From a virus: a stretch of DNA of 33,699 nucleotides. The notes under the pieces are model-generated. The model saw nothing but the letters and a program-made list of their open reading frames with translations. It was not told where the DNA came from and made no database searches. The DNA is taken from positions 1 to 33,699 of IMG/VR virus record IMGVR_UViG_3300042691_022238; one strand, written 5' to 3'. Positions within the stretch are counted from its first letter, which is position 1. The number at the start of each line of letters is the position of its first letter. The position numbers and the translations under genes are program-made. Below, piece by piece: positions 16,298 through 33,699 of this stretch.

Positions 16298-16298
16298 G

Positions 16299-17170: not shown

Positions 17171-17206
17171 CTGCGAGCAGCATTCCAGATGCTGCCGTTG
17201 AACGAC

Positions 17207-17271: not shown

Positions 17272-18711
17272 TTACTCGCCGTGAGCCACCACGAGTTCAC
17301 GCTTGAAGCGAGCGGCGTCGCCGGTGGCGGCGTCGGTGCGCACCACGAAGTCGCCGACCCATTTCCACGAGGTCGACACGACGTCCTGGAGGCGGTTCAG
17401 CGGAGCACGCATCACGAGCTGGATGCGATCCGAGAACACCTCGATGCCGTTGTTGGTGATCTGGGGAGCAGCCACCTTGCCGTTGAGGCCGGCGTCGCTG
17501 ATGTACTGCGACAGGTCCTGGTAGTACTCGTTCAGAGCCTGCTGGCCGGTGAACAGAGCGCGGTGGATCTGCACGTTCTGCTTGTTCCACACGATGCCGC
17601 CGAAGTTGTCCTCGACGCTGTAGCCATAGGTCCCGCTGCCGCTGTAGGCGGTTCCGGATCCCTTGACGGTCTCCGGCACAGGACACTCGGTGTTGCGCAT
17701 GAACGCCACGCCGAGGAGCTGGCCGATCGAGAACTGCTTGTACATGTAGTAGTCCGGCAGCGAGGTCAGCAGACGAGCGAACTGGTCGTCGTTGAAAATC
17801 TGCGCTTCCGACACGGGGTCGAGGTGGCAGTGGTAGAAGCCGTCAGCGTACTCCGGCACGTTCTGCTGGCGGAAGCGAGCCACCGCAGCGCGGATGTGCT
17901 TCAGACGCAGTTCGTCTCCAGCGGCGATGGCGTCGTCGGTCAGGGGATCCTTGCCCGAGGCCGAGGCCACGCGCACCTGCTGGCTGCGGTCACCGGCGAG
18001 CACGCCAGCCTGATCCACCACGGTCACAGCGGCCGAGAGCAGCAGCAAGCCGGGGCCGAACTCGTCGCCAGCGGTGTCGGCGGTGAAGCCGATCACGTTG
18101 ACCGAGGAGTAGACCGGAGCAGCGAGCGTTCCGGTGTTCACCGTGATGGCCAGCGGGTTGCTGCTGGACACAGGGGCGAACCGCACGGCCGAGCCACCGG
18201 AGAGGCTGGGGTTGCGGGCGCTGGTGAACCCGTCGATGCGCAGCACGCGCAGCGAGGTCACGCTGGACTGAGCGCCAGCGGCCATCGTCGAACCGGCCAT
18301 CGCGGCGTTGTACAGCGCGTTGCGGGCCTTCCGGTTCAGCGTCTGAGCAGCGTTCAGACCGAGCTGCTGCGCGTTGCGCAGGAACAGGTCAGCGATCGCG
18401 TTCACGCTGGTCGGCATGTTCGTGTCGATCGAGTTGGCGTACTGGTTGAGCTGGGCCGTCCACTGCTCGTAGGTGTACGAAGCGGGCAGCGGGTCAGCGC
18501 CGGGGGCGATGGGCTTCATGTCCACGCCCATCAGTCCCACGCCGGTGAAGGCCATGCTGTCACCGACGTGCGCCGGCCAGGCAACGACCTCCGCCTCCCC
18601 ACGGAACAGCATCTTGGGGAAGAGCGCATCGTGAAACGCACGCTCGAGCAGGTTCTCTTGAACAATCGCCCGAATCGCGGGCGAGGACGCAATCACGCTG
18701 AAATCAGCCAT
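17272..18711 (-). CDS. Major capsid protein (HK97-fold type), 479 aa
   Basis: The main shell protein. It lies directly after the scaffold gene and before connectors, the canonical place. The N-terminus is helical (SPAIRAIVQENLLERAFHDA), followed by FPKMLFRGEAEVVAWPAHVG, with an extended beta segment typical of the E-loop region. A helical spine follows (NAQQLGLNAAQTLNRKARNA). The central beta-rich part (about 155-245) looks like an inserted domain, and the axial-domain-like C-terminus contains IQLVMRAPLNRLQDVVST and WKWVGDFVVRTDAATGD. No N-terminal cleavage region (delta domain) is evident, in agreement with a separate scaffold. GGAG lies 6 bases before the ATG. Identification rests on context, size and fold pattern, not on a single motif. 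Confidence 0.85.
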   Translation of the reverse strand: MADFSVIASSPAIRAIVQENLLERAFHDALFPKMLFRGEAEVVAWPAHVGDSMAFTGVGLMGVDMKPIAPGADPLPASYTYEQWTAQLNQYANSIDTNMPTSVNAIADLFLRNAQQLGLNAAQTLNRKARNALYNAAMAGSTMAAGAQSSVTSLRVLRIDGFTSARNPSLSGGSAVRFAPVSSSNPLAITVNTGTLAAPVYSSVNVIGFTADTAGDEFGPGLLLLSAAVTVVDQAGVLAGDRSQQVRVASASGKDPLTDDAIAAGDELRLKHIRAAVARFRQQNVPEYADGFYHCHLDPVSEAQIFNDDQFARLLTSLPDYYMYKQFSIGQLLGVAFMRNTECPVPETVKGSGTAYSGSGTYGYSVEDNFGGIVWNKQNVQIHRALFTGQQALNEYYQDLSQYISDAGLNGKVAAPQITNNGIEVFSDRIQLVMRAPLNRLQDVVSTSWKWVGDFVVRTDAATGDAARFKRELVVAHGE

Positions 18712-19669: not shown

Positions 19670-19972
19670 TTACTTCAGCAGCGAGGCCGAGGTCACGTAC
19701 ACGATCACGGCGCCGGTCACGCCGGCCGAGAAGGTCAGCACCTTGCCGTCGATCTTGCAAACGCCAACCTCAGAGCCAACGGGAACCACGACGCCATCGG
19801 CATCGGACACGCAGTACAGGCCAGCGCCGACAGCGCCGGCGGTGACGCGCACCGACTGGACCATCATGGGCTCCTGGTCGAGCGTGATGGTGGTGGCCGA
19901 GGACTGAGCAACGACGGCCTTGACCTTGATGAGTTCAGGGGAGATCAACTGCGTGGTGAGCGTGATGGCCAT
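19670..19972 (-). CDS. Putative capsid decoration/stabilising protein, 100 aa
   Basis: A small protein made almost only of beta strands (ELIKVKAVVAQSSATTITLD, then VLTFSAGVTGAVIVYVTSAS), with no membrane segment or catalytic residues and just two cysteines. It lies just upstream of scaffold and capsid genes, where decoration and head-stabilising proteins (lambda gpD type) are commonly encoded. The hairpin behind the stop fits a highly expressed message. Decoration function is inferred from size, composition and place. Confidence 0.65.
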   Translation of the reverse strand: MAITLTTQLISPELIKVKAVVAQSSATTITLDQEPMMVQSVRVTAGAVGAGLYCVSDADGVVVPVGSEVGVCKIDGKVLTFSAGVTGAVIVYVTSASLLK

Positions 19973-19981
19973 GACAGCCTC

Positions 19982-20365
19982 CTATGCGAGAGCGCCGAGT
20001 ATGAGTCGGACGGTGACAGCAGAAGTACCAGGGTTTGTGATCTGGATTTCCGCAATTGAGTTCGTGGAATCCTTACGAACATAGAACACGCCGCTTGCTG
20101 ATACACCAAACGCCGTTTCGACAAGAGTCACTCGATTCGTCGAAGCGTAGAAGACAAAAGCGGCAGAACTGCCGAGAACGGTCGACATCGTGAATGTGCG
20201 CGATGCGCCGGCGGCGAGCGAGAACGTCTGATCAACAACGGCCTTCATGTTGGCCGCTTCGCTCAGAATGGCCGCGCTTTCCGTTCCGCCAACGACAGGT
20301 ATCGAAGGCTCAATGGTCAGTGAGCCAGCAATTCGGATCGTTTGCGGCGTGGATACGATGGCCAT
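19982..20365 (-). CDS. Beta-rich head protein A (paralogue of the next gene), 127 aa
   Basis: An all-beta, Ala/Ser/Thr/Val-rich protein without membrane segments. Its N-terminal IRIAGSLTIEPSIPVV, a mid-section with a strand after an LAAGASRTFTMS loop, and its C-terminal IQITNPGTSAVTVRLILG correspond in order to elements of the gene on its right (IQITNPSLTSAASVQITLG), so the two are likely paralogues. Such tandem pairs near the capsid gene are often head fibres or decoration proteins. The identification is structural inference; no enzymatic role is suggested. Confidence 0.65.
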   Translation of the reverse strand: MAIVSTPQTIRIAGSLTIEPSIPVVGGTESAAILSEAANMKAVVDQTFSLAAGASRTFTMSTVLGSSAAFVFYASTNRVTLVETAFGVSASGVFYVRKDSTNSIAEIQITNPGTSAVTVRLILGALA

Positions 20366-20369
20366 TGAA

Positions 20370-20765
20370 CTACACCTCGTTGAATCCCAGCGTGATCTGG
20401 ACGCTCGCCGCGCTGGTCAGCGACGGGTTGGTGATCTGGATGGAAGTCGCCGCGATCACCGGAGTGGACGTCGAATTCCCGATGATGATGAATGTTCCTA
20501 CCGCCTTCATCGATGCGGCGCCAGCGTCTTGCACTGCTACCGGCACGTTCGATGTCAGCATCATCACACAGGGGAAGAGCGTCCCGATGGCTGAAAGCGA
20601 CAACGTGATCGATGAATTGGCAGGGACGACCTTCTCGATCACGCCAACGGATGCATACACGCTCACCGGGAACGCCAGCGGGATCCTCGTCGAGAACCCA
20701 CCGGAAGCCGATGTCGCGCTCTGCGCAACCGTTGCCGTACCGGCGATCGTGATAGTGGATGCCAT
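20370..20765 (-). CDS. Beta-rich head protein B (paralogue of the neighbour), 131 aa
   Basis: Like its downstream neighbour it is made of short hydrophobic strands with Ser/Thr/Ala loops: TITIAGTATVAQSATS, then VVPANSSITLSLSAIG and IQITNPSLTSAASVQITLG. The shared order of an AG-x-x-T start, a P/G-A-x-S turn before a strand and an IQITNP end suggests duplication and divergence. The two genes are separated by only 4 bases. It is probably a virion surface protein on the capsid. Confidence in the gene is high, in the function low. Confidence 0.63.
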   Translation of the reverse strand: MASTITIAGTATVAQSATSASGGFSTRIPLAFPVSVYASVGVIEKVVPANSSITLSLSAIGTLFPCVMMLTSNVPVAVQDAGAASMKAVGTFIIIGNSTSTPVIAATSIQITNPSLTSAASVQITLGFNEV

Positions 20766-22716: not shown

Positions 22717-22886
22717 CTCTTCTTCGCCTTCGCCAGTCGCGCCAACGGCTTGACGCGCTCCGGCAGGCGTTTCAGTTTGCCCTTGGGCGTTTCCTTCACG
22801 AACTTCTCGGCCGTACCGGCAGGAATCTCTTTGCGAGCCTGGGCTGCGAAGAGATAACGCAACTGGGCCTTACTCTTGAGCGGCAC
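22713..22886 (-). CDS. Small basic phage protein (MPLKSKAQ-type), 57 aa
   Basis: Starts with GTG preceded by GAGG 6 bases upstream, overlaps the HNH gene by 17 bases and ends with ATGA into the morphogenesis gene. The sequence opens with PLKSKAQLRYLFAAQ, followed by FVKETPKGKLKRLPERVK. Short proteins with this opening and an ETP-x-x-K-x-L-P segment occur widely next to head genes of tailed phages, where they have no assigned function. It is very basic (many Lys/Arg), so contact with DNA or an acidic partner is plausible. Confidence 0.72.
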   Translation of the reverse strand: MPLKSKAQLRYLFAAQARKEIPAGTAEKFVKETPKGKLKRLPERVKPLARLAKAKKR

Positions 22887-23187
22887 GTTCTACCTCGTCA
22901 TGGCATGGCGCACACAGGGTGACCAGGTTTCTTGCCACGTCCTTCTTGATCAGATGGTGCAGTTCGAGATCCGTCTTGCTCCCGCAGCGCACGCACTTCC
23001 ACCCGTCTCGGCGGAACACGCCCAGCGCCAGAGAGGGAGCCACGCCGCCACCATTCTTGTGGGACAGCGTAGCGCCGGCCGTCTTGGCTTCACGACTCGT
23101 GACGTCAACGACCCTCTGCTCGTCAGCGGACAGTTCGACGACAGGCTTCTTTGGAATAGCTTTTGCGTACGTGGCGACGAGACTCAT
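22870..23187 (-). CDS. HNH endonuclease, 105 aa
   Basis: The C-terminal half is a classical HNH domain: CVRC (65-68), DLELHHLIKKD with the His pair at 77-78, ARNLVTLC with Asn87, and CAPCHDEVE with the last zinc Cys pair and His96. The two CxxC pairs bind structural zinc, and the central His pair is the metal and catalytic site. Many tailed phages encode an HNH protein near terminase and portal that works with the large terminase in DNA cutting; others are homing nucleases. Its place inside the head operon, without disrupting another gene, fits the packaging-related type. I chose the start MSLVATYA because it overlaps the previous stop (ATGA). Confidence 0.87.
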   Translation of the reverse strand: MSLVATYAKAIPKKPVVELSADEQRVVDVTSREAKTAGATLSHKNGGGVAPSLALGVFRRDGWKCVRCGSKTDLELHHLIKKDVARNLVTLCAPCHDEVERAAQE

Positions 23188-23450
23188 TCTTCCTGATCCT
23201 CCATCAGAATCTCTTCTCGAAGCAGTTCGAGCGACTCCATCCGAGATTCTGCTGACATATTGGACGTCCACCTGGTCGAGACATGCCCGTTCACGTCCCA
23301 CATGATGACCATTGCCTCTTGGATGTTGCCGCCTGCTGCTTCGACCGATGCGTCCTTGAGAAGTCCCCGAACATCATCCGCCCGCTTGTCCAGATACGCG
23401 GACAGGCGGTCAATGGAATGCCATTGGAACCGGCTCATAGAGTCGCTCAT
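23184..23450 (-). CDS. Small head-operon protein, 88 aa
   Basis: Not recognised. The protein is acidic and helical: MSDSMSRFQWHSIDRLSAYL, ADDVRGLLKDASVEAAGGN, then a strand pair with VIMWDVNGHVSTRWTSNM and a very acidic end (REEILMEDQEE). The alpha/beta order could form a small globular fold. The start shares ATGA with the previous gene's stop, and longer upstream open sequence belongs to the neighbour's frame. Its place between two small proteins of the head operon suggests an assembly or regulatory role. Confidence 0.62.
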   Translation of the reverse strand: MSDSMSRFQWHSIDRLSAYLDKRADDVRGLLKDASVEAAGGNIQEAMVIMWDVNGHVSTRWTSNMSAESRMESLELLREEILMEDQEE

Positions 23451-24180: not shown

Positions 24181-24554
24181 TTCCCGGTTGCTCCGACCAT
24201 GATCGGGATGTCCTTGGGGCCACGATCAATCTCGACCAGCACATAGTCGGGCAACTTGGCAGCGGCGACCTCCAAGTCCTTCGAGTGCATCGTACACGCG
24301 AAAGCATCTCCGATGCGCACCATCGGCCCGTATGTCGTCGGCAACGTCGGCATCTTGCCCTTGCTCTCAGCCAGAATGGCAGCGAGAACACCGGGGTTCG
24401 CCTGACGAGCGAATTCCTTGGCGTGCATGAAGGTCTTGATCCGGACAGCGGCAGGGATACCGCATTCGCAGCGTCGCCCGTTCCACGCGAACTTGCGATG
24501 CGCCTCGACCGGAGACAGTTCGCCATTCATGAACTTACGCACTTTCTTTGCCAT
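24177..24554 (-). CDS. Hypothetical protein with CxC pair, 125 aa
   Basis: Unrecognised. The N-terminus is basic (MAKKVRKFMNGELSPVEAHR) and followed by FAWNGRRCECGIPAAVRIKT, where C-x-C lies in a strand-turn region. The rest is mixed alpha/beta, with LAAILAESKGKMPTLPTTYG and a C-terminal DYVLVEIDRGPKDIPIMVG. GGAGGACGAC precedes the start, and the gene overlaps the HAD gene by 20 bases. No known catalytic motif. It may be a minor structural or regulatory protein of the head operon. Confidence 0.63.
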   Translation of the reverse strand: MAKKVRKFMNGELSPVEAHRKFAWNGRRCECGIPAAVRIKTFMHAKEFARQANPGVLAAILAESKGKMPTLPTTYGPMVRIGDAFACTMHSKDLEVAAAKLPDYVLVEIDRGPKDIPIMVGATGK

Positions 24555-24969
24555 GTCGTCCTCCAAGCACGATGCCGAGTTCTCGCCACTCGAATCCATC
24601 CGCGCCAAAGTGGTAGGCCCGATCGTCGATGAACAGGTCAACCAAGGGTTTGCCTTGCTGCCCGTCATCCACCGCAGCAAACACGCCAGGCAGTTCCTTC
24701 CTCACGAAAGCTAACATCTCTTGGTAGCGGCGCTCGTATGTGGGCTGCGATCGCTGCCATGCCGCTTCGTTCACTCGGCGCACGCCCGCTTGAACGAGCG
24801 GATCCAGTCGAGGGTTCTCGCGCAGCGCACGGTTCGCTCTGGCCGAGAAGAGCAAGAGAGCATGTCCCGCTTGCTTCATCGAGGAGAGCGCGTCCTTTGC
24901 TCCAGGCTTCAGACGCAACTCCCCTCCGTCCTCGACGACCGTGCCGTCAAAGTCCACGCCAATGATCAC
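24535..24969 (-). CDS. HAD-superfamily phosphatase-like protein, 144 aa
   Basis: Motif I is VDFDGTVVED, with nucleophile Asp6 and general acid Asp8. Motif II is LLLFSAR with Ser42. Motif IV is DLFIDDRA, with Asp115/Asp116 for Mg. These are the residues of the haloacid dehalogenase fold. Such small proteins without a cap domain remove phosphate from small molecules or nucleic-acid ends; phage examples include nucleotide phosphatases and the 3'-phosphatase part of polynucleotide kinase. There is no kinase domain here. Its substrate is unknown. The start overlaps the portal gene's stop by ATGA, an unusual place for an enzyme, so expression is late. Confidence 0.83.
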   Translation of the reverse strand: MIIGVDFDGTVVEDGGELRLKPGAKDALSSMKQAGHALLLFSARANRALRENPRLDPLVQAGVRRVNEAAWQRSQPTYERRYQEMLAFVRKELPGVFAAVDDGQQGKPLVDLFIDDRAYHFGADGFEWRELGIVLGGRHGKESA

Positions 24970-26768
24970 GGGAACATCCCTTCGGCACGCTCACGGGCGA
25001 TCGGATAGGAGATGGTCACCAACTCGATCGCCGCCTCTCGGTCGAGTTCGCCACGGTTCACCGCCTGCACGAGTTCCTGCAGCGCCTTCACCTGCGAACC
25101 GTTCAGTCCTTCATCCACAACGGGACCGCCGATCCCCATCGCCATCGCGTCGAGCTTCGCCTGAGCGTCATGCTCCGACTGCTGCATACGGTCGAGCATC
25201 AGTCGCACATCCTCGATCCGGAAGAACGGCGACAGCATGGTCGCAGCGTGAACCTGATCGACCAGTTTGGCAGACACCGCCATCGCAGCAGCGTCGACGG
25301 CCATCTTGGCGTCAGCGAGCGTCGGCTCAAAGTACCCAGGCCAACTCAGGTGCAGGAACTGCCCTTCGCCGGGCGTGCGCTGCTTGCGCTCGATAACGCG
25401 GCCAGAGGGGTCACGAGTGACCTTGGGCGGCACAGCGATCATGCCTCGCACGATGCGGCCTTCGGCGTCCACACGGCCCTCAGAGAGCCTGCGAACGGCC
25501 GTCAGCATCATCGACAGCAGAGGCTTGATGCCGCGCTCGCCGTACTGCTCGCGAAGGATGTCTGCACGAGCCATCATGGCGGCGTAGGCCCGCTCGACTT
25601 CCGTCGCGGTACGCTCCTTGTTGGTCGCCGTCTCGTCCTCCAGCACACACTGGCAGACTTCAAGCACCCGGCGCCGGAACATGTCGGCCAGTTCCGTAGC
25701 AGCACGGGATCCGGCACCCTTCAGTTCCAGGTACTCGGCCCGGCTGTTCGCCGGCAACTTGATCGGAGCATTGCTGCCCTTCGAGAGATCCGGAGGCAGT
25801 TCCGCGTCCGTCGAGATCACGAGCGTCGGGTCGGCGTTCGCGATTGTGCCGCGATTCGCCTGGGCGAGCAGCATGTCGATCGTCCGGATCATCTCGAAGG
25901 CGCCGTGGCAGTCGGGATCGCCATCGGTCGAATCGATCATCGGCGTGTTCTGGATCCAGACGACAGGACAGAAGCCCAGCCCGTGCTCGATTTCCCTCTC
26001 CACCTCAAAGTACGGGCGATCCTCGTTCACCGGGATTGGCTTGTAGAGGATGTCCTTCTCTTCGGTGATCACGCGCCGATACCAGTGCGGCATCTCGTGC
26101 CACATGCCGGTCTCAGGGTCGCGGATTTCGACCGGGTACTGATAGACCTTCTCGATCGACTTCAGTTCGAGCGAGTGCCGATCCTTGAACACCGGCGTGA
26201 CCCAGCGCGGATCGTGGACCTCAAGCACAGGCTTGCCATCGACGAACTGGAATCCGACAGCCACCGAACCCATCGCGCCGCCCAAGGTGCGGGCCAGGAT
26301 CATCGTGGACCACAGGCGCGAAGACTCAGCCAGAGCGTTCAGATAGTCCTCGGTGTCCATGTCGTCGTCACACCGGATGTGCGGGTGACGACGCTCGCCG
26401 AACAGCATGGACGTGAAGCGGTCGACGATGACCTTCGCCATCGCATACGGCGCAGTCGGCCGGCGGAACCGAAGAGGCAGCAGTGAGCCGGAGTCATAGA
26501 AGCCTGGAGGAATGTACGCGCCGGAGGCGATCGCTTCAGCCTCCATCGTCCCGACAACCTGTCCACCGTCCCAGTCGACCTTGCAGGCGCCGTAGGTCTC
26601 ACAGCGGTACACGGCCCAGGCACGGTTCAGTTCGATCTGCCGGGGCGACATGCCGAGCCGCTGCATCTTCTCGGCAGTCTCAGCAGGATCCTTCACCGGA
26701 CCGCCGCCGATGTAGTTTCCGACGATGTTCTTGAACGCGCTGAAGTCGATCTTGATTCCGCTGCTCAT
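24966..26768 (-). CDS. Portal protein, 600 aa
   Basis: The dodecameric ring through which DNA is packaged. Visible features are an N-terminal helical region (QIELNRAWAVYRCETYGACK), MAKVIVDRFTSMLFGERRHP, then VLEVHDPRWVTPVFKDR and an EKVYQYPVEIRDPETG strand series (clip/wing). The region GFCPVVWIQNTPMIDSTDGD, followed by SDAF-like helix IRTIDMLLAQANRGTIANAD, is the portal core. A long helical stem follows with ADMFRRRVLEVCQCVLEDE and ERTATEVERAYAAMMARADI, then MLTAVRRLSEGR. This order is seen in large portal proteins. I chose ATG at 26768, which has GGAG 6 bases upstream. Both ends overlap or abut neighbours. Confidence 0.92.
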   Translation of the reverse strand: MSSGIKIDFSAFKNIVGNYIGGGPVKDPAETAEKMQRLGMSPRQIELNRAWAVYRCETYGACKVDWDGGQVVGTMEAEAIASGAYIPPGFYDSGSLLPLRFRRPTAPYAMAKVIVDRFTSMLFGERRHPHIRCDDDMDTEDYLNALAESSRLWSTMILARTLGGAMGSVAVGFQFVDGKPVLEVHDPRWVTPVFKDRHSLELKSIEKVYQYPVEIRDPETGMWHEMPHWYRRVITEEKDILYKPIPVNEDRPYFEVEREIEHGLGFCPVVWIQNTPMIDSTDGDPDCHGAFEMIRTIDMLLAQANRGTIANADPTLVISTDAELPPDLSKGSNAPIKLPANSRAEYLELKGAGSRAATELADMFRRRVLEVCQCVLEDETATNKERTATEVERAYAAMMARADILREQYGERGIKPLLSMMLTAVRRLSEGRVDAEGRIVRGMIAVPPKVTRDPSGRVIERKQRTPGEGQFLHLSWPGYFEPTLADAKMAVDAAAMAVSAKLVDQVHAATMLSPFFRIEDVRLMLDRMQQSEHDAQAKLDAMAMGIGGPVVDEGLNGSQVKALQELVQAVNRGELDREAAIELVTISYPIARERAEGMFP

Positions 26769-26769
26769 T

Positions 26770-26970
26770 TCACGCTCCAACTTGGAATCGACCCGCCGAG
26801 ATGTTGGTCTGGAATCGAATATCGCGGTTACGATAGCACCAAACCTGACCGTTTTCGTCCAATGCGGTCACCCAGAGCAGATCATGCTCGATGCCATAGT
26901 CGATCAGGATGTGGGCCAGTCCCTTGCCTTTCGGAGTCTCGATCGGGACTGGTGGATCCAGTTGAAGCAT
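26770..26970 (-). CDS. Small hypothetical protein upstream of the portal, 66 aa
   Basis: The reading frame stays open further upstream, but that part overlaps another small gene and starts with a poor GTG. I chose the ATG of MLQLDPPVPI, which overlaps the previous stop (TGATG) and has GGAG 9 bases before it. The protein has KGKGLAHILIDYGIEHDLLW, then WVTALDENGQVWCYRNRDIR, a strand-helix-strand arrangement that could form a small open-face sheet. No family is recognised. Its coupling to the portal gene suggests a regulatory or assembly role. Confidence 0.63.
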   Translation of the reverse strand: MLQLDPPVPIETPKGKGLAHILIDYGIEHDLLWVTALDENGQVWCYRNRDIRFQTNISAGRFQVGA

Positions 26971-27089
26971 CAAGGGATTCTCCAGAGGCGAGCCAAAGCA
27001 CGCTTCGCCATCATCTCGACACGTTTGTTTTCGCAAAAGAAAGCGTAGCTCAAGATCTTGAGCCACCTGTTCGCCCTTCTGATTCTCAT
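26970..27089 (-). CDS. Very small basic protein, 39 aa
   Basis: A short gene with AAGGAGG 2 bases before its ATG, lying 8 bases behind the thioredoxin-like gene and ending TGATG into the next. Its product is MRIRRANRWLKILSYAFFCE and then KRVEMMAKRALARLWRIP, strongly basic with two amphipathic helical segments and one Cys. It could bind nucleic acid or membranes, or merely couple translation of the portal message. The tight fit at both ends is the main evidence for the gene. Confidence 0.6.
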   Translation of the reverse strand: MRIRRANRWLKILSYAFFCENKRVEMMAKRALARLWRIP

Positions 27090-27097
27090 CGCCTCCT

Positions 27098-27487
27098 TCA
27101 TGTTGTCAGGATCTGGGCGATGGACCCAGCGATGATGTTGCGAGCCTGCTGGCCCGTGAAGCGATACCGCTCGACATTCCCTGCGTCGTAGATGATCAGC
27201 GTAGGCACCGCTTGAATGCCAAGCGCCTCGGCCAGAGGCATTTCTGTCGAGATGTCGATCCGACGAATCGGCACACCGTATTCGTTGGCCACCGACAGCA
27301 CTGTCGGTTCAAACGCTGCACATGGCCGACATGTCGGCGACTTAAAGTACTCCATTCGAGCCATTGGTTTTCTCCGCATCAGTCCGGCCGACAACACTGT
27401 CGCCGTACGTTCCGGTTGCACAGTTTCAACCTTGAATTCTACAGGTCGAGTCTTGACCACATCCGATCGGCGCCAGACTTTGATCAT
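27098..27487 (-). CDS. Thioredoxin-like protein with N-terminal extension, 129 aa
   Basis: Residues 44-129 form a thioredoxin-type fold: MEYFKSPTCRPCAAFEPTVL with active-site CRPC (53-56), a VANEYGVPIRRIDIS strand, and IQAVPTLIIYDAG with the cis-proline after Val94, followed by VERYRFTGQQ. Thioredoxins reduce disulphides; phage versions act as cofactors (as host TrxA does for T7 polymerase) or keep proteins reduced. The C-R-P-C active site is rare compared with CGPC, so the redox potential is unclear. The start that overlaps the Tad2-like gene (ATGA) adds about 40 basic residues; an internal ATG at MARMEYF would give a standard-size protein. Confidence 0.85.
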   Translation of the reverse strand: MIKVWRRSDVVKTRPVEFKVETVQPERTATVLSAGLMRRKPMARMEYFKSPTCRPCAAFEPTVLSVANEYGVPIRRIDISTEMPLAEALGIQAVPTLIIYDAGNVERYRFTGQQARNIIAGSIAQILTT

Positions 27488-27708
27488 TCGACAATCCAGT
27501 CGTCCGAGAGCAGATCGGACTGTGACGGAACCCATCCTGGGAACCATTGCCGATTCGGCAGGCAGAGGATGTAGTATCCAGCGATATTGATCGGCTCAGG
27601 CCCGTCCAGCGACACGCGAGGCGGCATGAACAGAACAGACTCAACCCAGCCATTCCGCTTGATCTTCTTGCCAGAGAACAGCTTCTTCGATGCTTCAGCG
27701 AACGTCAT
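27484..27708 (-). CDS. DUF2829/Tad2-like protein, candidate anti-Thoeris protein, 74 aa
   Basis: The sequence has the two ends typical of DUF2829 proteins: an N-terminal MTFAEASKKLFSGKKIKRNG followed by W (F-x-x-A-x-x-x-L-x-x-G-K-x-x-x-R-x-G-W) and a C-terminal GWVPSQSDLLSDDWIVE (W-x-P-S-Q-x-D-L-L-x-x-D-W). The best-known member, Tad2, forms a homotetramer that traps glycocyclic ADP-ribose, the alarm molecule of Thoeris defence; relatives sequester other cyclic nucleotides. The length here is slightly short for the family (many are 85-110). Its place in a cluster of small proteins outside the structural core fits an anti-defence gene. Function is inferred from the family only. Confidence 0.8.
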   Translation of the reverse strand: MTFAEASKKLFSGKKIKRNGWVESVLFMPPRVSLDGPEPINIAGYYILCLPNRQWFPGWVPSQSDLLSDDWIVE

Positions 27709-27875
27709 TGATTTTCCTTGCGGGAGGCGAAATCGAACGCCTCTGCCATCAGACGCAGGAACCCAGGCTTCGACATCCCGACCTCGATTGCCTTCTCTGA
27801 TACAAGGTCAATCAAGTCACTGACGTCGTCGTCAGTCGCGTTCTTCATCAGTTTTCGGATCTCATTGATTGCCAT
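27705..27875 (-). CDS. Small helical protein, 56 aa, first gene of the leftward cluster
   Basis: The product starts MAINEIRKLMKNATDDDVSD and continues with LIDLVSEKAIEVGMSKPGFL and a last helix with FDFASRKENQ. It is helical, mixed charge, with no Cys and no known family; the helix arrangement could suggest a small helix-turn-helix-like or coupling protein, but this is weak. It ends ATGA into the Tad2-like gene. A TTGACA box stands 31 bases upstream, shared in wider context with the promoter at 32.3 kb. It lies divergent to the collagen-like lipoprotein gene, 46 bases apart. Confidence 0.63.
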   Translation of the reverse strand: MAINEIRKLMKNATDDDVSDLIDLVSEKAIEVGMSKPGFLRLMAEAFDFASRKENQ

Positions 27876-27881
27876 GCTCAC

Positions 27882-27911: not shown

Positions 27912-27921
27912 CGGAGGAAGA

Positions 27922-29241
27922 ATGCTCATCAAGTACCTACCCATGATCCTGTTCGTCAGTGGTTGCATCGGGGAACCGATCAAGAAGACCGACCTGTACG
28001 GAGCCGACTCGATCACCCGTCAACGTCCAGCAGACTGCGATGGGGCGACCATCGACTTCGGCGTGGACGATAACCAAGACGGGACGCTATCAGACTCTGA
28101 GGTCGACCATACGGTCACTGTGTGCAACGGAAAGGATGGGGCCGATGGAGTGGATGGTGATGCTGGCAGCGTTGGCCCTGCTGGACCGCAAGGCGCCACG
28201 GGAGCCACTGGAGCAACCGGCGCTGATGGTAGCCCTGGTGTGGATGGTCGCGATGGACAGACTGGTGCTACTGGTCCCGCTGGGCCTGCTGGTGTACCGG
28301 GCGCAGACGGGAAGGATGGAGTGAATGGTGCTGATGGCTCACCGGGTGTTGCTGGACCTGTTGGTGCAACCGGCGCTGTGGGCGCTACTGGTGAGGCTGG
28401 TCTTCCGGGTGCTGCGGGCGCACAGGGCGAGAAGGGAGAGACTGGAGCAAGCGGCGCCTCCGCAGTCTTCCGCGAGGAAGCCATCAAGCCTGGCGCAGAC
28501 TGCCTCAAGGGCGGGACCCGGCTCCACTACGGAACGACAGAACGAGAGATCGGGTCGATCCTGATCTGCGCTCAGTCCTGCGGGTCGTACCAGTGCGGAG
28601 GCGAGTGCGGCACTTGCTCGACAGGGTACGACTGCCAAGACGCCATGTGCGCCGACATCGATGAGTGCCTACTCGAGGATGCTTGCCAAGGCTGCGAGAA
28701 CCGGCCGGGATCCTTCTTCTGCCCGCCTCTCTGCGTAGCTCCGCGCCTTCTGTGCGACACGGGATGCGTGAACCCAGCCGAAGACACCGTCAACTGCGGC
28801 GCCTGCGGGATCCAGTGTGCCATTCAACAGGCATGCGTCGCCGGCGTGTGCGTCGGCAGCGGCCAACTCCGCTTCTCGTCCACCTGGTCGCGCCCCGGCG
28901 ATATCGACGTCTGGGTCACCACGCCCAACGGCATCAGCATCGGCTGGCAGAACCAACGTGCCGATGGAGGCCAGCAAGACAAGGACGACACCAGCGGCAC
29001 CGGCCCTGAGAACATCTATTGGGAAGTTATGCCCGTATCTGGCAGTTACAACGTCTGCGTCGCAACGAACTACATCCAGCCAAACGCCGCGTCCCCTGTC
29101 ACCGTTCGCGTCGTTGTGGCGCGGCCGGCAGCAGAGGACGAGGTCTTCGAGCGTGAGTACACGGAGAGTCGACCCTTCGGACGGACTGATCGCTGCTCAC
29201 CGGAGCATCCGACCTATCTGGGGTCAGTGACGATTGAGTAA
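27922..29241 (+). CDS. Collagen-like, cysteine-rich lipoprotein (moron candidate), 439 aa
   Basis: The only plus-strand gene. Residues 1-15 form a lipoprotein signal with lipobox VSGC (12-15); Ile16 follows, so outer-membrane sorting is likely in a Gram-negative cell. Then come an acidic [12 protein letters not shown] loop, 37 uninterrupted Gly-X-Y triplets (70-180), a Cys-rich part with an EGF-like [20 protein letters not shown], a module [18 protein letters not shown] (282-299) typical of myxobacterial secreted proteins, and a C-terminal beta domain (about 315-390; DUF2135-like, [14 protein letters not shown]). GGAGGAAG precedes the ATG. It may coat the host cell and block receptors for other phages, or change adhesion. 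It has no tail-fibre features. Confidence 0.85.
28129..28461 (+). repeat. Collagen-like Gly-X-Y coding repeat (37 triplets)
   Basis: Repeating GGN-NNN-NNN codons without interruption, dominated by G-A-T, G-P-A, G-A-D and G-A-x. The DNA copies vary in third positions, so it is a protein-level repeat rather than a recent slippage array. Phage and bacterial collagen-like regions of this length form stable triple helices, so the protein is probably trimeric. Confidence 0.9.
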
Positions 29242-29249
29242 CGCCGACG

Positions 29250-29597
29250 TTACCAAGGATCGAAGTTAGTCACGTTCACGTGATCAGCGAGGAACCTCTG
29301 GTCGACCTTGGCGACCTCCTCGCTGGCCATGATCAGGAGTCGGAGTTTCTCTCCCTTGACATCACTGTTGTTGATCGCCAGTTCCCTGATCTGATCGAGG
29401 GCGGCATTGATGGCCGATTTCACGGCACGTGCCGCCACGATCTTCGCCCTGTCATCAAAGTGCCGATTGATCACCGACAGCAGGTTGTCGTCGTCGTCCG
29501 TGTTTGCCGGGAACTCCTCTCGGATTTCGTCGAGTTCCCTTTCTAGCAGTGAAATTCGATAATTCGCCGACTCCAGCGGATCACTTTCCCATTCCAT
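29250..29597 (-). CDS. Coiled-coil small protein, 115 aa
   Basis: No family recognised. The N-terminal part MEWESDPLESANYRISLLER, then LDEIREEFPANTDDDDNL is acidic and likely a coiled coil; a second helical segment (AKIVAARAVKSAINAALDQI) is more basic. The start MEWESD has GAGGAG 7 bases upstream and overlaps the previous gene by 17 bases. Its 3' end lies 8 bases from that of the collagen-like gene, so the two are convergent with no room for a shared terminator. Last gene of the small-gene array. Confidence 0.65.
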   Translation of the reverse strand: MEWESDPLESANYRISLLERELDEIREEFPANTDDDDNLLSVINRHFDDRAKIVAARAVKSAINAALDQIRELAINNSDVKGEKLRLLIMASEEVAKVDQRFLADHVNVTNFDPW

Positions 29598-29958
29598 GGA
29601 ACGCTCCTCTCTTGATGCACCGTCTGCGATACCGCACCGCCCAGATGGCCATCGCGAGAGCAGCTTTACGTGTGTAATCCTCGCTCCCTTGGATGGTCTT
29701 CGAGTCGCAGAGGACACCATCTTCGTCGTCGCCGAACAGTCGGATCGTGACCATCACCTTCCACTTCGACAACCCTTCGTCCGTCAGGATGACGATGCGG
29801 GCGCCCTGGTAGGTTGCTGTCGAGACGAACACTCCCGGCATCACAGAGTCATGCCAGTCCACCGTCACCGTCTTCGCCTTCAGCCTGGCGGATTCCTTGT
29901 GATGCTTCCCGCACATGCAGCGGGCTTCTTCTTGGCTGCACCAGTCGCAGATGATCAT
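29581..29958 (-). CDS. Zinc-binding-type small protein, 125 aa
   Basis: The N-terminus MIICDWCSQEEARCMCGKHH has C-x-x-C (4,7), C-x-C (14,16) and a His pair, a plausible metal site. The body is beta-rich, with KTVTVDWHDSVMPGVFVSTA, ARIVILTDEGLSKWKVMVTI, and ends with a helix containing AIWAVRYRRRCIKRG. No known family. The start overlaps the previous stop (ATGA). Like two other genes of this array it opens with a Cys cluster, so they may bind nucleic acid or modify host proteins; this is inference. Confidence 0.65.
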   Translation of the reverse strand: MIICDWCSQEEARCMCGKHHKESARLKAKTVTVDWHDSVMPGVFVSTATYQGARIVILTDEGLSKWKVMVTIRLFGDDEDGVLCDSKTIQGSEDYTRKAALAMAIWAVRYRRRCIKRGAFHGMGK

Positions 29959-30140
29959 CCTTCCCCCTTCGTCAGATCGTGAGCCAGATGCTCGTAGACG
30001 TCGGCCAGCAGCAGACTGATGTTCCGGTCTTCCGAATCACGGGTCGTTCGCGCCTGCTCTCTTGAGTACTCCGCCTTCCCCAGTAGACGCTTCCGGATGC
30101 GTTCGCGTTCCTGTGTCACTGCGTCAGTATCAGCGCCCAC
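29955..30140 (-). CDS. Small charged helical protein, 61 aa
   Basis: Starts with GTG preceded by GGAGG 6 bases upstream. The sequence is almost all helix: TQERERIRKRLLGKAEYSRE, then ARTTRDSEDRNISLLLADVY and EHLAHDLTKGEG. It has no Cys and no membrane segment. Family unknown. It overlaps the previous gene by 11 bases and the next by 4, so it is translated as part of the array. Confidence 0.6.
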   Translation of the reverse strand: MGADTDAVTQERERIRKRLLGKAEYSREQARTTRDSEDRNISLLLADVYEHLAHDLTKGEG

Positions 30141-30516
30141 GACGCGCCTCCCATTCCTCTCTGGTGATCTCCACGTTCACCCCGTTCTCTCGGACGAAGA
30201 TCCCCGTCCCGACCCGGCGCGGCGTCTCCACTGAATTGAACCATCGCTCGATCGCGCCCATCCACGAGGCCCGACACGCCTTACACACACGAAGGCTGAA
30301 CATCTGGGCGTTCAGTTCGCCAGTCGGTTCCTCTGAGAAGACCGGGATCTCCAAACCGTTGCTCAGTTCCTTCGTTCCCGTCCTCTTGCGCAATGTCCCA
30401 TGCGCCCGCTCCGACACGAATGGCACGTTCAGTTCGTCCATCGCGTAGAAGCACGCCATCCGCAGCGTTCGCCGGTCTTCCCCTTCTTCCCCACATCGAA
30501 CACATCGTTCGCTCAT
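30130..30516 (-). CDS. Zinc-ribbon small phage protein, 128 aa
   Basis: The N-terminal MSERCVRCGEEGEDRRTLRM, followed by ACFYAMDELNVPF, and a second pair in LRVCKACRASWMGAIERWF give two C-x-x-C pairs about 80 residues apart, a typical split zinc ribbon. The block C-x-x-C-G-x-x-G-x-D-R-R-T-L-x-M-A-C-F-Y-A-M-x-E-L is a pattern I have seen in many phage small proteins with no assigned function. I chose MSERC, not the GTG 7 codons further up, because AAGGAAGGGA lies at proper distance. Possibly DNA- or RNA-binding. Confidence 0.72.
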   Translation of the reverse strand: MSERCVRCGEEGEDRRTLRMACFYAMDELNVPFVSERAHGTLRKRTGTKELSNGLEIPVFSEEPTGELNAQMFSLRVCKACRASWMGAIERWFNSVETPRRVGTGIFVRENGVNVEITREEWEARRGR

Positions 30517-30533
30517 GGATTCCCTTCCTTCTG

Positions 30534-30821
30534 TCACGACTGCTCCAAGGCAAGGAACGCCTCAAGGTCGCCCTTCAGTTCCTTGGCCTGGTTTTCCAGA
30601 TTCCGCAGTCGCATGCGGATGTTTTCCACTCGAAGCCGAATCGCCTCTGCTCGCGTCGTCGCGATGAGTTCCGCCGCCATGCCTTGCTTCGGGATGGATG
30701 TCAGAAACCCGAAAGCCAAGAGTTGCTCGGTTGTCCGGAACGACATCGGCCTCTCTTCAGCCTCCGTTTCGACCACCTCAACGGATCCGTTCAGATTGAT
30801 CTTGGTTCCGTAGAGCTTCAT
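30534..30821 (-). CDS. Small coiled-coil protein, 95 aa
   Basis: Unrecognised. The start MKLYGTKINLNGSVEVVE overlaps the previous stop (ATGA); longer upstream sequence is in the neighbour's frame. After a beta hairpin the protein has FLTSIPKQGMAAELIAT and a long C-terminal helix, ENIRMRLRNLENQAKELKGD, with heptad-like hydrophobic spacing. This suggests an oligomeric protein. No Cys, no membrane segment. Confidence 0.63.
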   Translation of the reverse strand: MKLYGTKINLNGSVEVVETEAEERPMSFRTTEQLLAFGFLTSIPKQGMAAELIATTRAEAIRLRVENIRMRLRNLENQAKELKGDLEAFLALEQS

Positions 30822-31144
30822 TTGCCATCCTTCGGCAATTCCAGCGCTCGAATCTCCATCGCGCACTGGAGCGTCTCAGAGATACCGAATCGTCCATATC
30901 GAGACGACAGCATCCAGAACGCCTCGGCTCGCATCTTGTTCGCGCCAAGCATGAATGAGTCCTGGTCGACGTCACCCTGCTCCGCCAACGCCGCATCGAT
31001 CCGGGACACCAGACCGCGCAGCCGCTCGCAACCCTTGCAGTCACAAAAGAAGTCCGGGTCGTCGATGCCTACGACGTTCGACTCCAGCGCATCCTTCGAG
31101 ATTTCCCGCGCTTCCATGAGCAGTGCTCGCAGTTCCTTGATCAT
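30818..31144 (-). CDS. Small protein with CDCKGC motif, 108 aa
   Basis: A helical protein: MIKELRALLMEAREISKDAL, then DDPDFFCDCKGCERLRGLVS with the three Cys of C-x-C-x-x-C, followed by FMLGANKMRAEAFWMLSSRY and a C-terminal QCAMEIRALELPKDG. The Cys set may bind metal with another residue. No family recognised. GGGGGAGCG immediately precedes the ATG. It belongs to the translationally coupled array of small genes. Confidence 0.64.
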   Translation of the reverse strand: MIKELRALLMEAREISKDALESNVVGIDDPDFFCDCKGCERLRGLVSRIDAALAEQGDVDQDSFMLGANKMRAEAFWMLSSRYGRFGISETLQCAMEIRALELPKDGK

Positions 31145-31159
31145 CGCTCCCCCTTGGCG

Positions 31160-31528
31160 TCAGACCGTCTCGATGTCGCCTTCGATTCCGCGGAAATAAT
31201 GGAACTCAGAGTTGTCTCCGAATCCATATTTCGCCAGATGCTGCGAAACCTCATCGTTGATGAACACGTTCTTGTCTTCAATCTCAAGGTACTTCTGAAT
31301 GCTTGGCCCATCGCTCTCAGGCATCCTCAACACCGAATCCATAAGATAAAACTCGTATGCCGTTTCATTGAACATGCTGGCGATCTCGGCCTTCAAGGCG
31401 ATTCGATCCTGACTGCACTTCTCTCGATTCTGCAGGAAATGCTGCTGGATGTATCCAAGAAAAGCATGGATCGTCGACCAGAAGTCGTTGTCGTGAAATC
31501 GGATACCGATGCTTATATTCTCACCCAC
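31160..31528 (-). CDS. Hypothetical small protein, 122 aa
   Basis: Starts with GTG behind GGAGG at 6 bases. The sequence is helical and aromatic: FHDNDFWSTIHAFLGYIQQH, RIALKAEIASMFNETAYEFY, and ends in an acidic EDKNVFINDEVSQHLAKYG, then FGDNSEFHYFRGIEGDIETV. Composition is less GC-rich and richer in Asn/Phe/Tyr than its neighbours, which may point to a separate origin. No family, Cys cluster or membrane segment. Confidence 0.63.
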   Translation of the reverse strand: MGENISIGIRFHDNDFWSTIHAFLGYIQQHFLQNREKCSQDRIALKAEIASMFNETAYEFYLMDSVLRMPESDGPSIQKYLEIEDKNVFINDEVSQHLAKYGFGDNSEFHYFRGIEGDIETV

Positions 31529-31718
31529 GAATCGCCTCCTCCGCCTTGGCCATCGCTTCGGCCTTGGTCTCCATCAGCCCCTGTCCGATGATCTCGCTCG
31601 ACCACTTCTCGTAGGCCACCCAGGACCATCCGCATCGCTTGCCTTCGACGAAGGCCAGTCGGCCATCAAGACCGCAACTGTGGTTCTGCTTGTGCGAATC
31701 CCAGCGCAGGTCACTCAA
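31521..31718 (-). CDS. Small protein, paralogue of the 52-aa gene at 31.9 kb, 65 aa
   Basis: I place the start at the TTG that overlaps the previous stop (TTGAGTGA) because the open frame further upstream lies inside the zinc-ribbon gene; no strong Shine-Dalgarno is visible. The sequence has SCGLDGRLAFVEGKRCGWSW, then VAYEKWSSEIIGQGLMET and a helical end AEAMAKAEEAIRG. The order C-x-L-x-G-R-x-A, D/E-G-x-x, W-x-A-Y and a closing A-x-x-A-E helix is repeated in the gene at 31863-32021, so the two arose by duplication. Confidence 0.62.
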   Translation of the reverse strand: MSDLRWDSHKQNHSCGLDGRLAFVEGKRCGWSWVAYEKWSSEIIGQGLMETKAEAMAKAEEAIRG

Positions 31719-31881
31719 TGTCGCGTCCGCATCCGGCGTGCTTCTTCTCGAAAGCCTCGGAAATCGCAGCAAGATCGTCGATCCAGATCGGCAGCACGAC
31801 ACTCACCCGCCGGCCGCATCCTTCACACCTGATCGGCAACACGCCATCACTGCTCTCGCAAATCACGATGTGGCTATGCAT
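31711..31881 (-). CDS. Small zinc-ribbon protein, 56 aa
   Basis: GGAGG lies 4 bases before the ATG. The protein reads MHSHIVICESSDGVLPIRCE, then GCGRRVSVVLPIWIDDLA and ends with FEKKHAGCGRDIE. The Cys in ICE, CEGC and HAGC, with nearby His, form a plausible zinc ribbon. It overlaps both neighbours (19 and 8 bases), standing between the two paralogous genes. The order gene-zinc ribbon-paralogue may be a duplicated unit that lost one copy. No known function. Confidence 0.67.
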   Translation of the reverse strand: MHSHIVICESSDGVLPIRCEGCGRRVSVVLPIWIDDLAAISEAFEKKHAGCGRDIE

Positions 31882-32021
31882 GAAGCCTCCAGCGCCCGCT
31901 CCGCCTGATCAATCACCTTGCCGCCGAACCTGTCGTACGCAATCCATCGGCATCCGTCGATCAACGCAAACCGGCCCTCGAGGGCGCACCACCCTCGGTC
32001 TCCGTTCCAGCACCAGTTCAC
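31863..32021 (-). CDS. Small protein, paralogue of the 65-aa gene, 52 aa
   Basis: Starts with GTG that overlaps the previous stop (GTGA). The product begins MNWCWNGDRGWCALEGRFAL, then IDGCRWIAYDRFGGKVID and ends AERALEASCIATS. It matches the 65-aa gene in C-A-L-E-G-R-F-A against C-G-L-D-G-R-L-A, and W-I-A-Y-D against W-V-A-Y-E, with an 8-12 residue insertion in the longer copy. The W-rich first part and four Cys could bind metal. Function unknown. Confidence 0.66.
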   Translation of the reverse strand: MNWCWNGDRGWCALEGRFALIDGCRWIAYDRFGGKVIDQAERALEASCIATS

Positions 32022-32272
32022 AGCATGATCCGCAGTTCGTCTCGCGACTCCTTGTACAGCCCCAGCACGAACTCCGTCGCGTCGATCAGCGCATCAAGAT
32101 GCGCGATCCGAGCCGCGATCGCAGCATCCTTCGTCTCGCCCAAGAACTTCTTCGCCAGTTCAATGTCGTGGACGAACACTGTCCCATCGATGACCCATCC
32201 AGGGCCGCTCCGCTCCGCTTCCACCTCGACCAACTTGTACCGGCCTCCCGGCAGTTCCTTCGTCGTCCACAT
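32018..32272 (-). CDS. First gene of the small-gene array, 84 aa
   Basis: I chose MWTTKELPGG because it lies 30 bases behind the predicted start point of the promoter and has GGGGG 6 bases upstream; longer versions would begin before or at the start point. The protein has RYKLVEVEAERSGPGWVIDG, TVFVHDIELAKKFLGETKDA and a helical end IDATEFVLGLYKESRDELR. The alpha/beta order resembles small phage proteins of unknown role. As first gene under a strong promoter it is expected to be well expressed. Confidence 0.65.
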   Translation of the reverse strand: MWTTKELPGGRYKLVEVEAERSGPGWVIDGTVFVHDIELAKKFLGETKDAAIAARIAHLDALIDATEFVLGLYKESRDELRIML

Positions 32273-32308
32273 GACGAACCCCCATCCGCGCTCCATGCGC
32301 GAACAGGG

Positions 32309-32337
32309 GCTATAGCGAACACGCATGCCAGTGTCAA
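32309..32337 (-). promoter_or_regulatory. Sigma70-type promoter for the leftward small-gene array
   Basis: The minus strand reads TTGACA (32337-32332), 17 bases, TATAGC (32314-32309): 6 of 6 and 4 of 6 consensus matches with optimal spacing. The expected start point is near 32302, about 30 bases before the ATG of the first array gene. The -35 box contains the TGA stop of the upstream membrane-protein gene, so promoter and coding end overlap. Confidence 0.8.
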
Positions 32338-32669
32338 CGCGAAACGATCCATGCACCCAACAAGATCCCAGTGACCAGCGATACCCCACCTCCGATCAGT
32401 ACCGCCTTCTTGAGTCCACTGTTCGCTGCGTCCAGCGTCGTGATCTGTCCGGCCATCCGACTCATCGCCGCATCCCGCTCGACAACCGCTTCCTTCGATG
32501 CCGTCAGCGCCACAGCACACTTCTCCGCCGCAGCCCTCGCGTCGATCGTTGCGTTCACAAGCTTCGTGAACCCAGCCTTCTCACAGACCACCGTGCCGTC
32601 CGGCATGTTCCGGCACGGCGTCTGCGCGAAAGCCAACCCTGGAACCAAGATCAGGATGGCCAGTCTCAT
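32334..32669 (-). CDS. Membrane-anchored lysis-region protein (spanin/holin-like position), 111 aa
   Basis: A signal peptide (MRLAILILVPGLAFA, cleavage before Q-T-P-C) is followed by NMPDGTVVCEKAG, a helical coiled-coil-like middle (ATIDARAAAEKCAVALTASK) and a C-terminal membrane segment, AVLIGGGVSLVTGILLGAWI. The order signal - periplasmic coiled coil - membrane segment gives a type I membrane protein. Directly behind endolysin genes such proteins are spanin- or holin-related; neither is proven here, and no lipobox is visible. Earlier open sequence before the Met is basic and unnatural. The stop lies inside the -35 box of the next promoter. Confidence 0.65.
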   Translation of the reverse strand: MRLAILILVPGLAFAQTPCRNMPDGTVVCEKAGFTKLVNATIDARAAAEKCAVALTASKEAVVERDAAMSRMAGQITTLDAANSGLKKAVLIGGGVSLVTGILLGAWIVSR

Positions 32670-32670
32670 G

Positions 32671-32862
32671 TCACAACCCGTTGATGATGTCGTTCGCCGC
32701 GTCCACTGAGTCTTTCGCCTTCGCTTCTTCCGCCTTCTTCTCGATCGCCGCATGCACCTTCGCCACGAACTCCTCCCGGCGCACGTCCGACTGCTCGATC
32801 TTCTTCAGTTCCTCCTTCGGGAAGAACCACGTCCGGATCAACGTCATCAGCCAGGAGATCAT
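32671..32862 (-). CDS. Small lysis-region protein with hydrophobic N-terminus, 63 aa
   Basis: The first 15 residues, MISWLMTLIRTWFFP, are hydrophobic and aromatic, followed by a charged helix (EELKKIEQSDVRREEFVAKV, HAAIEKKAEEAKAKDS). This could be a membrane-dipping or N-terminally anchored protein with a cytosolic or periplasmic coiled coil. It overlaps the endolysin's stop by ATGA and ends one base before the next gene's ATG. In lysis cassettes the gene after the endolysin is often a holin, antiholin or spanin; here only position and shape support that. Confidence 0.65.
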   Translation of the reverse strand: MISWLMTLIRTWFFPKEELKKIEQSDVRREEFVAKVHAAIEKKAEEAKAKDSVDAANDIINGL

Positions 32863-33395
32863 GCGATCCTCGAGTCGCTGGAGTTGTACGCCTCATACGT
32901 CGGCTTGCCCGCCACCACGAACATCGACAACTTGTCCCCGCGCTGCTTGCCCGTCTTCGGATGCAGATGGCCAACATGCACCCACGTCGGCTCGCAGATC
33001 ACCTGATCCAGTTTCAACCCGGCCTTGATGATCGCGTCACACATCCCCTTCCGGGTCACCTTCAGCGGTTTGATGTCCGCCGCCAGCCCGTACGAATGCG
33101 CCGACGTCAACGATCCACCCACCGCCTTGTTGATCGCGTCCGAGCGGTAGCCAGAATTGATGTGCATCGGCCCGATCAACGCTCGAATCGGCTCCAGCGC
33201 CTCCACACACAACTTCCGCAGGTTCGCCAACACCTCCGGCGAAGGCTCGTTCGACAAGCCCTTCGACCGGCCAGTCCCCGAATCCAACATCTCCGACAGT
33301 TTGAAGTGCGGCGAGAGTTGCTCGTCCGGCACCTTCCCCGTCTGCTTGCACAATTCACACTTCTTTCCCCAGCAGCGCGGACAATCCATCATCAT
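32859..33395 (-). CDS. Endolysin, peptidase M15-type, with N-terminal Cys cluster, 178 aa
   Basis: Residues about 30-150 form an M15 peptidase: HFKLSEMLDSGTG, HINSGYRSDAINKAVGGSLT, then SAHSYGLAADI with zinc ligands His and Asp (S-x-H-x6-D), and WVHVGHLH with the last zinc His. M15 endolysins cut the peptide stems of peptidoglycan (L-Ala-D-Glu or D-Ala bonds) at lysis. The N-terminus MMMDCPRCWGKKCELCKQTG carries two C-x-x-C pairs, a zinc-knuckle-like addition that is uncommon for this family. There is no signal peptide, so a holin is needed for export. The first of three successive ATG codons overlaps the previous stop (ATGA). Confidence 0.87.
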   Translation of the reverse strand: MMMDCPRCWGKKCELCKQTGKVPDEQLSPHFKLSEMLDSGTGRSKGLSNEPSPEVLANLRKLCVEALEPIRALIGPMHINSGYRSDAINKAVGGSLTSAHSYGLAADIKPLKVTRKGMCDAIIKAGLKLDQVICEPTWVHVGHLHPKTGKQRGDKLSMFVVAGKPTYEAYNSSDSRIA

Positions 33396-33699
33396 TTGGC
33401 ACCAGCCTTCTTCTTCGCAGCAGTCTCCATCTTCGAGATCCGCCGACTCAGAGCCTCCATCTTCGGGTCGATCGCATCAATCTTCTCGGATACCGCCTTC
33501 AACGCCGCGTTCGTCTGCTCCGGGATCGCCTGCACCTGACCAGCCAATCCCTGCATCTGGCCAGCCAGTCCCTGTACCTGAGCCGCGAGCGCAGCATTCT
33601 GCACCGCACAAGCCTTGTGGTCGCCTTCCTTCTTCTCGCTTTCCATCTTCTTCATCTCAAGTTCATGCTCCCGCTTGCCCTGGAGCATGTCCTTGATCT
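33392..33699 (-). CDS. Coiled-coil protein, 5' end probably beyond the window
   Basis: The frame is open to the right edge. An ATG at 33688 exists but has only a poor AAGGA one base before it, and the upstream codons (I-K-D) look natural, so the gene is likely cut. The visible product is rich in Lys/Glu (EHELEMKKMESEKKEGD), has a repeated GLAGQ segment (VQGLAGQMQGLAGQVQAIPE) and a second coiled-coil part (VSEKIDAIDPKMEALSRRI) ending in KKKAGAK. It probably oligomerises. It stands upstream of the endolysin and could be a lysis accessory or tail-related protein. Confidence 0.62.
   Translation of the reverse strand, partial: IKDMLQGKREHELEMKKMESEKKEGDHKACAVQNAALAAQVQGLAGQMQGLAGQVQAIPEQTNAALKAVSEKIDAIDPKMEALSRRISKMETAAKKKAGAK

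Follow-up and report, generated by a model that had tools for sequence, protein, structure and literature searches.

An uncultured myovirus carries, antisense to its late genes, a gene for a lipoprotein with a long collagen-type stalk, which is probably a host-derived phage moron making a host-envelope lipoprotein of the infected cell. The initial annotation of this DNA had read the protein as lipid-anchored in the envelope of the host and not as a virion fibre, and the present analysis upholds that position on account of a conserved lipobox, the opposite strand, fibre matches that lie on the Gly-X-Y tract and the presence of domains belonging to Myxococcota lipoproteins.

Results

The window and its phage group

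The DNA analysed here (the window) is a fragment of 33,699 bases, IMG/VR virus record IMGVR_UViG_3300042691_022238, and represents the late region of an uncultured myovirus in which the virion genes are all on the minus strand (Table 1). The phage group is regarded as uncultured because its portal and capsid are only 26–32% identical to those of the nearest cultured phages, which are Komagataeibacter phages (26–28%) and Streptomyces phage Kromp (32%). The host is probably a social soil bacterium of the Myxococcota; a portal profile applied to 195 Myxococcota genomes found no prophage of this group, and the host is therefore not proven by the portal profile. No integrase was found in ten of 11 related contigs, which is weak evidence of absence because all of these contigs are fragments.

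Several other minus-strand genes in the window may be recorded. A phage thioredoxin-like protein (27098–27547; Pfam Thioredoxin, 1.1e-9) is encoded between the portal and lipoprotein genes, while a small HAD-like protein adjoining the portal (24535–24969; PHROG phosphoheptose isomerase, 1.9e-12; Pfam HAD, weak) is kept in relatives. An HNH endonuclease gene (22870–23301) lies inside the head gene cluster, and three consecutive genes for proteins of 100–131 aa (19670–20765) run from a scaffold-like gene to the small head genes; two of these proteins are alike in relatives and are perhaps duplicated decoration proteins. The gene at 625–1851, situated below those of the baseplate, encodes a PKD-type domain (3.3e-7), and its product is a candidate part of a fibre or spike.

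Table 1. Features of the collagen-stalked lipoprotein gene, its neighbours and the principal late genes of the window.
Feature	Position	Strand	Basis or remark
Baseplate J	4076–5251	-	
Sheath	12448–14478	-	weak match
Capsid	17272–18711	-	
Portal	24966–26780	-	
Divergent neighbour, 55 aa ORF, no assigned function	27713–27877	-	53% identity in L002
Ribosome-binding site GGAGG	27913–27917	+	read in sequence
Collagen-stalked lipoprotein gene, 439 aa	27922–29241	+	open frame; dN/dS; orthologues L002, L057, L058/L059
Type II signal peptide, lipobox VSGC (V12-S13-G14-C15)	27922–27966	+	sequence; Cys invariant in orthologue alignment
DUF7151 domain, residues 40–68	28039–28125	+	Pfam PF23657, E 4.5e-7, over cut-off
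Collagen-type stalk, 37 Gly-X-Y triplets, residues 70–180	28129–28461	+	Pfam Collagen, 3.6e-17
Degenerate second DUF7151-like segment, residues ~182–217	28465–28572	+	alignment with L057, L058
Cys-rich segment, residues 218–243	28573–28650	+	cysteines invariant among orthologues
EGF-like remnant, residues 245–271	28654–28734	+	alignment; Pfam on orthologues
Myxobacterial Cys module with NCGACG, residues 276–311	28747–28854	+	species-genome scan
YfaP/DUF2135-type C-terminal domain, residues 313–439	28858–29238	+	profile comparison with E. coli YfaP
Convergent neighbour, 156 aa, no assigned function	29250–29720	-	ORF list; weak match in L002
M15 endolysin	32859–33395	-	

Anatomy of the gene and its product

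The initial annotation had called an open reading frame, a lipobox and an uninterrupted run of 37 Gly-X-Y triplets, all of which were borne out: the frame has exactly the boundaries given in Table 1, the lipobox cysteine is invariant among orthologues and the longest Gly-X-Y run in 2000 shuffles of the protein was 6. All four distinct orthologues, the window counted, have GGAGG shortly before the start codon. The N-terminus, basic and hydrophobic, leads into a lipobox whose Cys is residue +1, and the two form a lipoprotein signal; acylation is predicted at Cys15, such that the mature protein would start CIGEPIKK. By the length and continuity of its Gly-X-Y tract and the corresponding Pfam match, the product is a collagen-like protein. 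Pfam added a DUF7151 domain to the features named previously, and in L057 and L058 it detects a second DUF7151 after the stalk, which is thus flanked by this domain on both sides.

Two further claims stood in part. The proposed EGF-like piece is real, being a full EGF_CA over the Pfam cut-off in the orthologues, but the window copy is degenerate, without 3 and ~13–17 codons and without two EGF cysteines. The C-terminus had been described as DUF2135-like; the Pfam DUF2135 model itself gave no match to the protein at E up to 1, but when profiles were compared, E. coli YfaP, itself a DUF2135 protein, matched with a probability of 96.5% and 33% identity over 70 residues. This match falls in the region N-terminal to the DUF2135 of YfaP, and so indicates kinship to the YfaP domain, not membership of Pfam DUF2135. 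The intervening Cys module is weakly STIG1-like, with a Stig1 match below the cut-off.

AlphaFold2 modelled the head (last 162 residues, five sequences) as all-beta at low confidence (mean pLDDT 66). With an E cut-off of 0.001, Foldseek found nothing for this model in PDB or among viral models; in VIA-align the best score was Z 6.6 (DUF4425), while TerD scored 5.0 and others were tied. The model would suggest at most a common beta-sandwich.

Orthologues and selection

Four contigs (L002, L057, L058 and L059), which represent three distinct related phages besides the window, carry orthologues; L058 and L059 encode an identical protein, so there are four distinct proteins when the window is counted. 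L002 derives from a related phage (84% identity in DNA, 93% in the portal) and has the gene in the corresponding place, encoding a lipoprotein with 81% identity over aligned residues. L057 and L058/L059 are among the 36 loci obtained by a portal profile scan; their portals are 57% identical and their orthologues, encoded opposite to the portal, are 58–59% identical over aligned residues. The lipobox and its surroundings are kept in all four distinct orthologues, and the number of Gly-X-Y triplets varies across the four proteins (37, 24, 39 and 32).

The lipoprotein gene is nowhere in the 91.8 kb record of L006 (portal 52%), nor in the available DNA of the remaining portal loci, many of which are short or cut. 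Only the same four contigs were returned when the viral collection was searched with two other profiles, one for the C-terminus, with cellular sequences added, and one for the N-terminus. Relatives defined by the endolysin comprised 46 loci, from which seven records were searched and gave no lipoprotein; in two endolysin relatives, L012 and L013, little else of the window was matched. Matches in DSS3 roseophages were rejected as orthologues, since they concern a different 660 aa protein with only the YfaP-type domain in common; in Roseophage DSS3_VP1 (L007:3804–5786) this protein has no assigned function and its YfaP-type domain a profile probability of 97%.

Values of dN/dS are 0.14 for the window and L002 and 0.19 for L057 and L058, which are rough because synonymous sites are near saturation. 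Divergence between the window and L002 by codon position is 13/11/43%, and this, together with the dN/dS of 0.14, indicates that the plus-strand frame is translated. By these sequence comparisons, the lipoprotein gene is under purifying selection. A chimeric assembly was considered and rejected, since the related phages that carry the gene come from several different metagenomes.

Genomic setting

As previously noted, the gene stands between a small-gene array (29250–33688) and the portal cluster (24966–27877), that is, between endolysin and portal, and is antisense to its neighbours; the minus-strand ORFs stop at 27877 and restart at 29250. It had also been described as the only plus-strand gene. 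No other plus-strand ORF has clear coding support, and the one at 16296–17201 is conserved less among related phages than the minus-strand ORF that overlaps it, though its second half (~16806–17201) might be an exception.

The order in L057 is terminase, lipoprotein (antisense), a 255 aa protein, endolysin and portal, and L058 has an extra 293 aa ORF between terminase and lipoprotein. In every phage carrying the lipoprotein gene, it occupies the terminase–portal interval with an orientation opposite to the late genes; since the neighbours differ between phages, the gene therefore shifts within one interval while its orientation is kept. The extra ORF in L058 (L058:5554–6435, plus strand) resembles a D12-class DNA adenine methylase by eye, with nothing in Pfam at 0.01, and the divergent neighbour in L002 is a DNA methylase gene (L002:8511–9533, minus strand; Pfam N6_N4_Mtase, 4.3e-35) that is absent from the corresponding place in the window. 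Long inverted repeats lie directly 3' of the lipoprotein gene in L057 (CAACTCTCC...GGAGAGTTG) and L058 (CAACCCTCC...GGAGGGTTG); their arms show matched changes between the two contigs and are terminator-like. The window has no such inverted repeat directly 3' of the gene.

Probable Myxococcota origin of the protein domains

The NCGACG module had been called myxobacterial, in agreement with a scan of one genome per species (84,980 species) that located it at 80 loci with titles nearly all from Myxococcota or Deltaproteobacteria. A search of Myxococcota with the C-terminus, as the initial annotation had suggested, was also productive: a C-terminal profile matched 17 of 21 genomes at 1e-8, this set being chosen by the Cys module. 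An earlier scan of genome contigs with the C-terminal 260 residues found nothing. When at most eight candidates per genome were scored with the full-length profile, 19 of 195 Myxococcota genomes matched at 1e-25, and these matches cover the C-terminal or the N-terminal half, never both; a complete homologue could have escaped notice under this limit. DUF7151 is present in 116 of 189 Myxococcota genomes and in none of 14 controls. One locus among the Myxococcota genomes drawn (L148, genome G039, 9 Mb) bears the title 'Comamonas sp. KCTC 72670' and is probably mislabelled.

Some of the Myxococcota DUF7151 proteins are DUF7151-collagen lipoproteins, and EGF-Cys-YfaP lipoproteins are also found in the phylum. 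The former (for example L216, L219) resemble the phage protein in their lipobox, DUF7151 and long Gly-X-Y tract, but have other C-terminal parts, with no EGF/Cys/YfaP end seen. The latter (for example L174, L183, L190) have the same order of EGF, Cys module and YfaP-type domain, a lipobox in several cases and C-terminal domains that align at full length with the phage domain (38–48% identity over the aligned C-terminal part); unlike the phage copy, they are chromosomal, sometimes in tandem arrays, and have no collagen stalk or DUF7151 in front. In one Myxococcota genome such an array contains four EGF/Cys/YfaP-type lipoprotein genes (G159:C174:9265–15225).

Both halves of the phage protein are, to judge from their sequences, typical of Myxococcota lipoproteins, and the fused architecture was seen in phages only. 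A tree of 38 C-terminal domains, the root of which is not known, places the phage proteins in one group (100/98) among Myxococcota rows. The simplest reading of these sequences would be a single acquisition before the phages diverged.

Discussion

Predicted localisation and a possible role in exclusion

Lipoproteins of M. xanthus that have neither Lys at +2 nor Ala at +7 are sorted to the outer membrane (PMC3222651), and the outer-membrane location of SitA was inferred using the same rule (PMC5562445). The mature starts, CIGEPIKK in the window and CDGDPIT in L057/L058, likewise have neither residue at these positions, so an outer-membrane location is predicted for the phage protein provided that the host sorts like M. 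xanthus. Against this, the Asp at +2 of L057/L058 would direct a lipoprotein to the inner membrane in E. coli, and surface exposure does not follow from an outer-membrane location, since many lipoproteins of that membrane face the periplasm. We propose that the protein would be lipidated at Cys15 and sorted to the outer membrane, where the Gly-X-Y tract would trimerise into a rod of ~32 nm (111 residues at ~0.29 nm each) and hold the Cys-rich/YfaP head away from the membrane. Such a rod is hard to fit upright in the periplasm, which favours the outside, and the lipoprotein may well be exposed on the cell surface. The head or coat could then mask the cell surface or a phage receptor, and progeny and competing phages would fail to adsorb to the infected cell or its debris.

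That the protein serves exclusion in this way, by blocking re-adsorption, is a tentative proposal made by analogy. The precedent is Llp of T5 and BF23, a phage-encoded lipoprotein made in the infected cell, where it blocks the receptor (PMC4728585); the proposed effect would be alike, but no sequence relation is shown, and the window protein is large and stalked. No known exclusion protein, Llp included, is related to the lipoprotein in sequence, and PADLOC returned nothing.

Alternative explanations

Instead of masking, the stalked head might alter the binding or recognition of neighbouring cells, or pass between cells by outer-membrane exchange, which we consider possible though on the unlikely side; we are just as guarded about the corollary that infection would thereby be spread or protected without phage adsorption being blocked. 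Adhesive proteins often contain collagen and EGF modules, whose presence here favours adhesion, as do matches to the NCBIfam Scl and Lcl adhesins, which are due to the collagen tract alone. Outer-membrane lipoproteins pass between myxobacterial cells, a route used by SitA, which is encoded by the prophage-like Mx-alpha of M. xanthus, is predicted to lie in the outer membrane and provides a precedent for mobile-element lipoproteins in myxobacteria (PMC5562445). SitA differs, however, in its polymorphic C-terminal toxin domain and its immunity gene; the C-terminus of the window protein is a conserved YfaP-type domain, the next gene is convergent, there is no toxin domain or immunity gene and a myxobacterial host is no more than probable. 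Masking is placed slightly ahead of a change in cell contact because it requires the infected cell alone and fits phages in whose contigs, all fragments, no integrase was detected.

It is improbable that the gene is a captured host gene that merely hitchhikes, being useless to the phage or serving the host only. Every module does occur in host-type lipoproteins, but purifying selection operates in phages whose portals differ by 43%, and both interval and orientation have been kept.

It is also very unlikely that the protein belongs to the virion, as a fibre or a decoration protein with the kind of collagen shaft found in other phages. Phage collagen repeats sit mostly in tail fibres (PMC3368898) and PHROG tail-fibre families match the protein, but the best-scoring of these matches are on or around the collagen tract, and outside it Pfam finds no phage-fibre domain in the window protein or its orthologues. 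EPclA and EPclB, tail fibres of E. coli O157 prophages, likewise have a Gly-X-Y tract in a phage gene, but they possess phage-fibre domains at both ends and no lipoprotein is mentioned (PMC3368898). Conservation of the lipobox and the antisense orientation of the gene relative to the late genes also argue against a fibre, while the baseplate and likely fibre genes are at the other end of the window (4076–5251 and below). Near-identical genes acting as fibre components in unrelated phages, which the initial annotation had regarded as evidence against its own reading, did not appear; the gene is limited to one related group, and no finding ties it to tail fibres.

A small phage lipoprotein encoded near an endolysin often proves to be an o-spanin, the outer-membrane part of the lysis machinery, and the lipoprotein gene of L057 has the M15 endolysin two genes away. 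Typical o-spanins are short, however, and do not resemble a 439 aa protein built from collagen, EGF and YfaP modules; moreover, its gene is on the strand opposite to the endolysin and in the window is separated from it by several small genes, making this explanation barely credible.

Significance

Lipoproteins with which phages alter the cell they infect are already known, as are collagen repeats in phage fibres; the literature searched contained no conserved phage lipoprotein combining a long collagen stalk with a host-type head. Returning to the host-envelope lipoprotein that we favour, the phages, whose host would be a social bacterium that exchanges outer membrane, may have fused two host lipoprotein types to re-dress the infected cell, and so to control contact or infection, although we offer this as conjecture. 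The protein suggests that phages use collagen on the host surface, instead of on the virion, and its Myxococcota-type parts offer a clue as to which host this uncultured group of myoviruses infects. If that host is a myxobacterium, the finding points to phage interference with contact-dependent behaviour.
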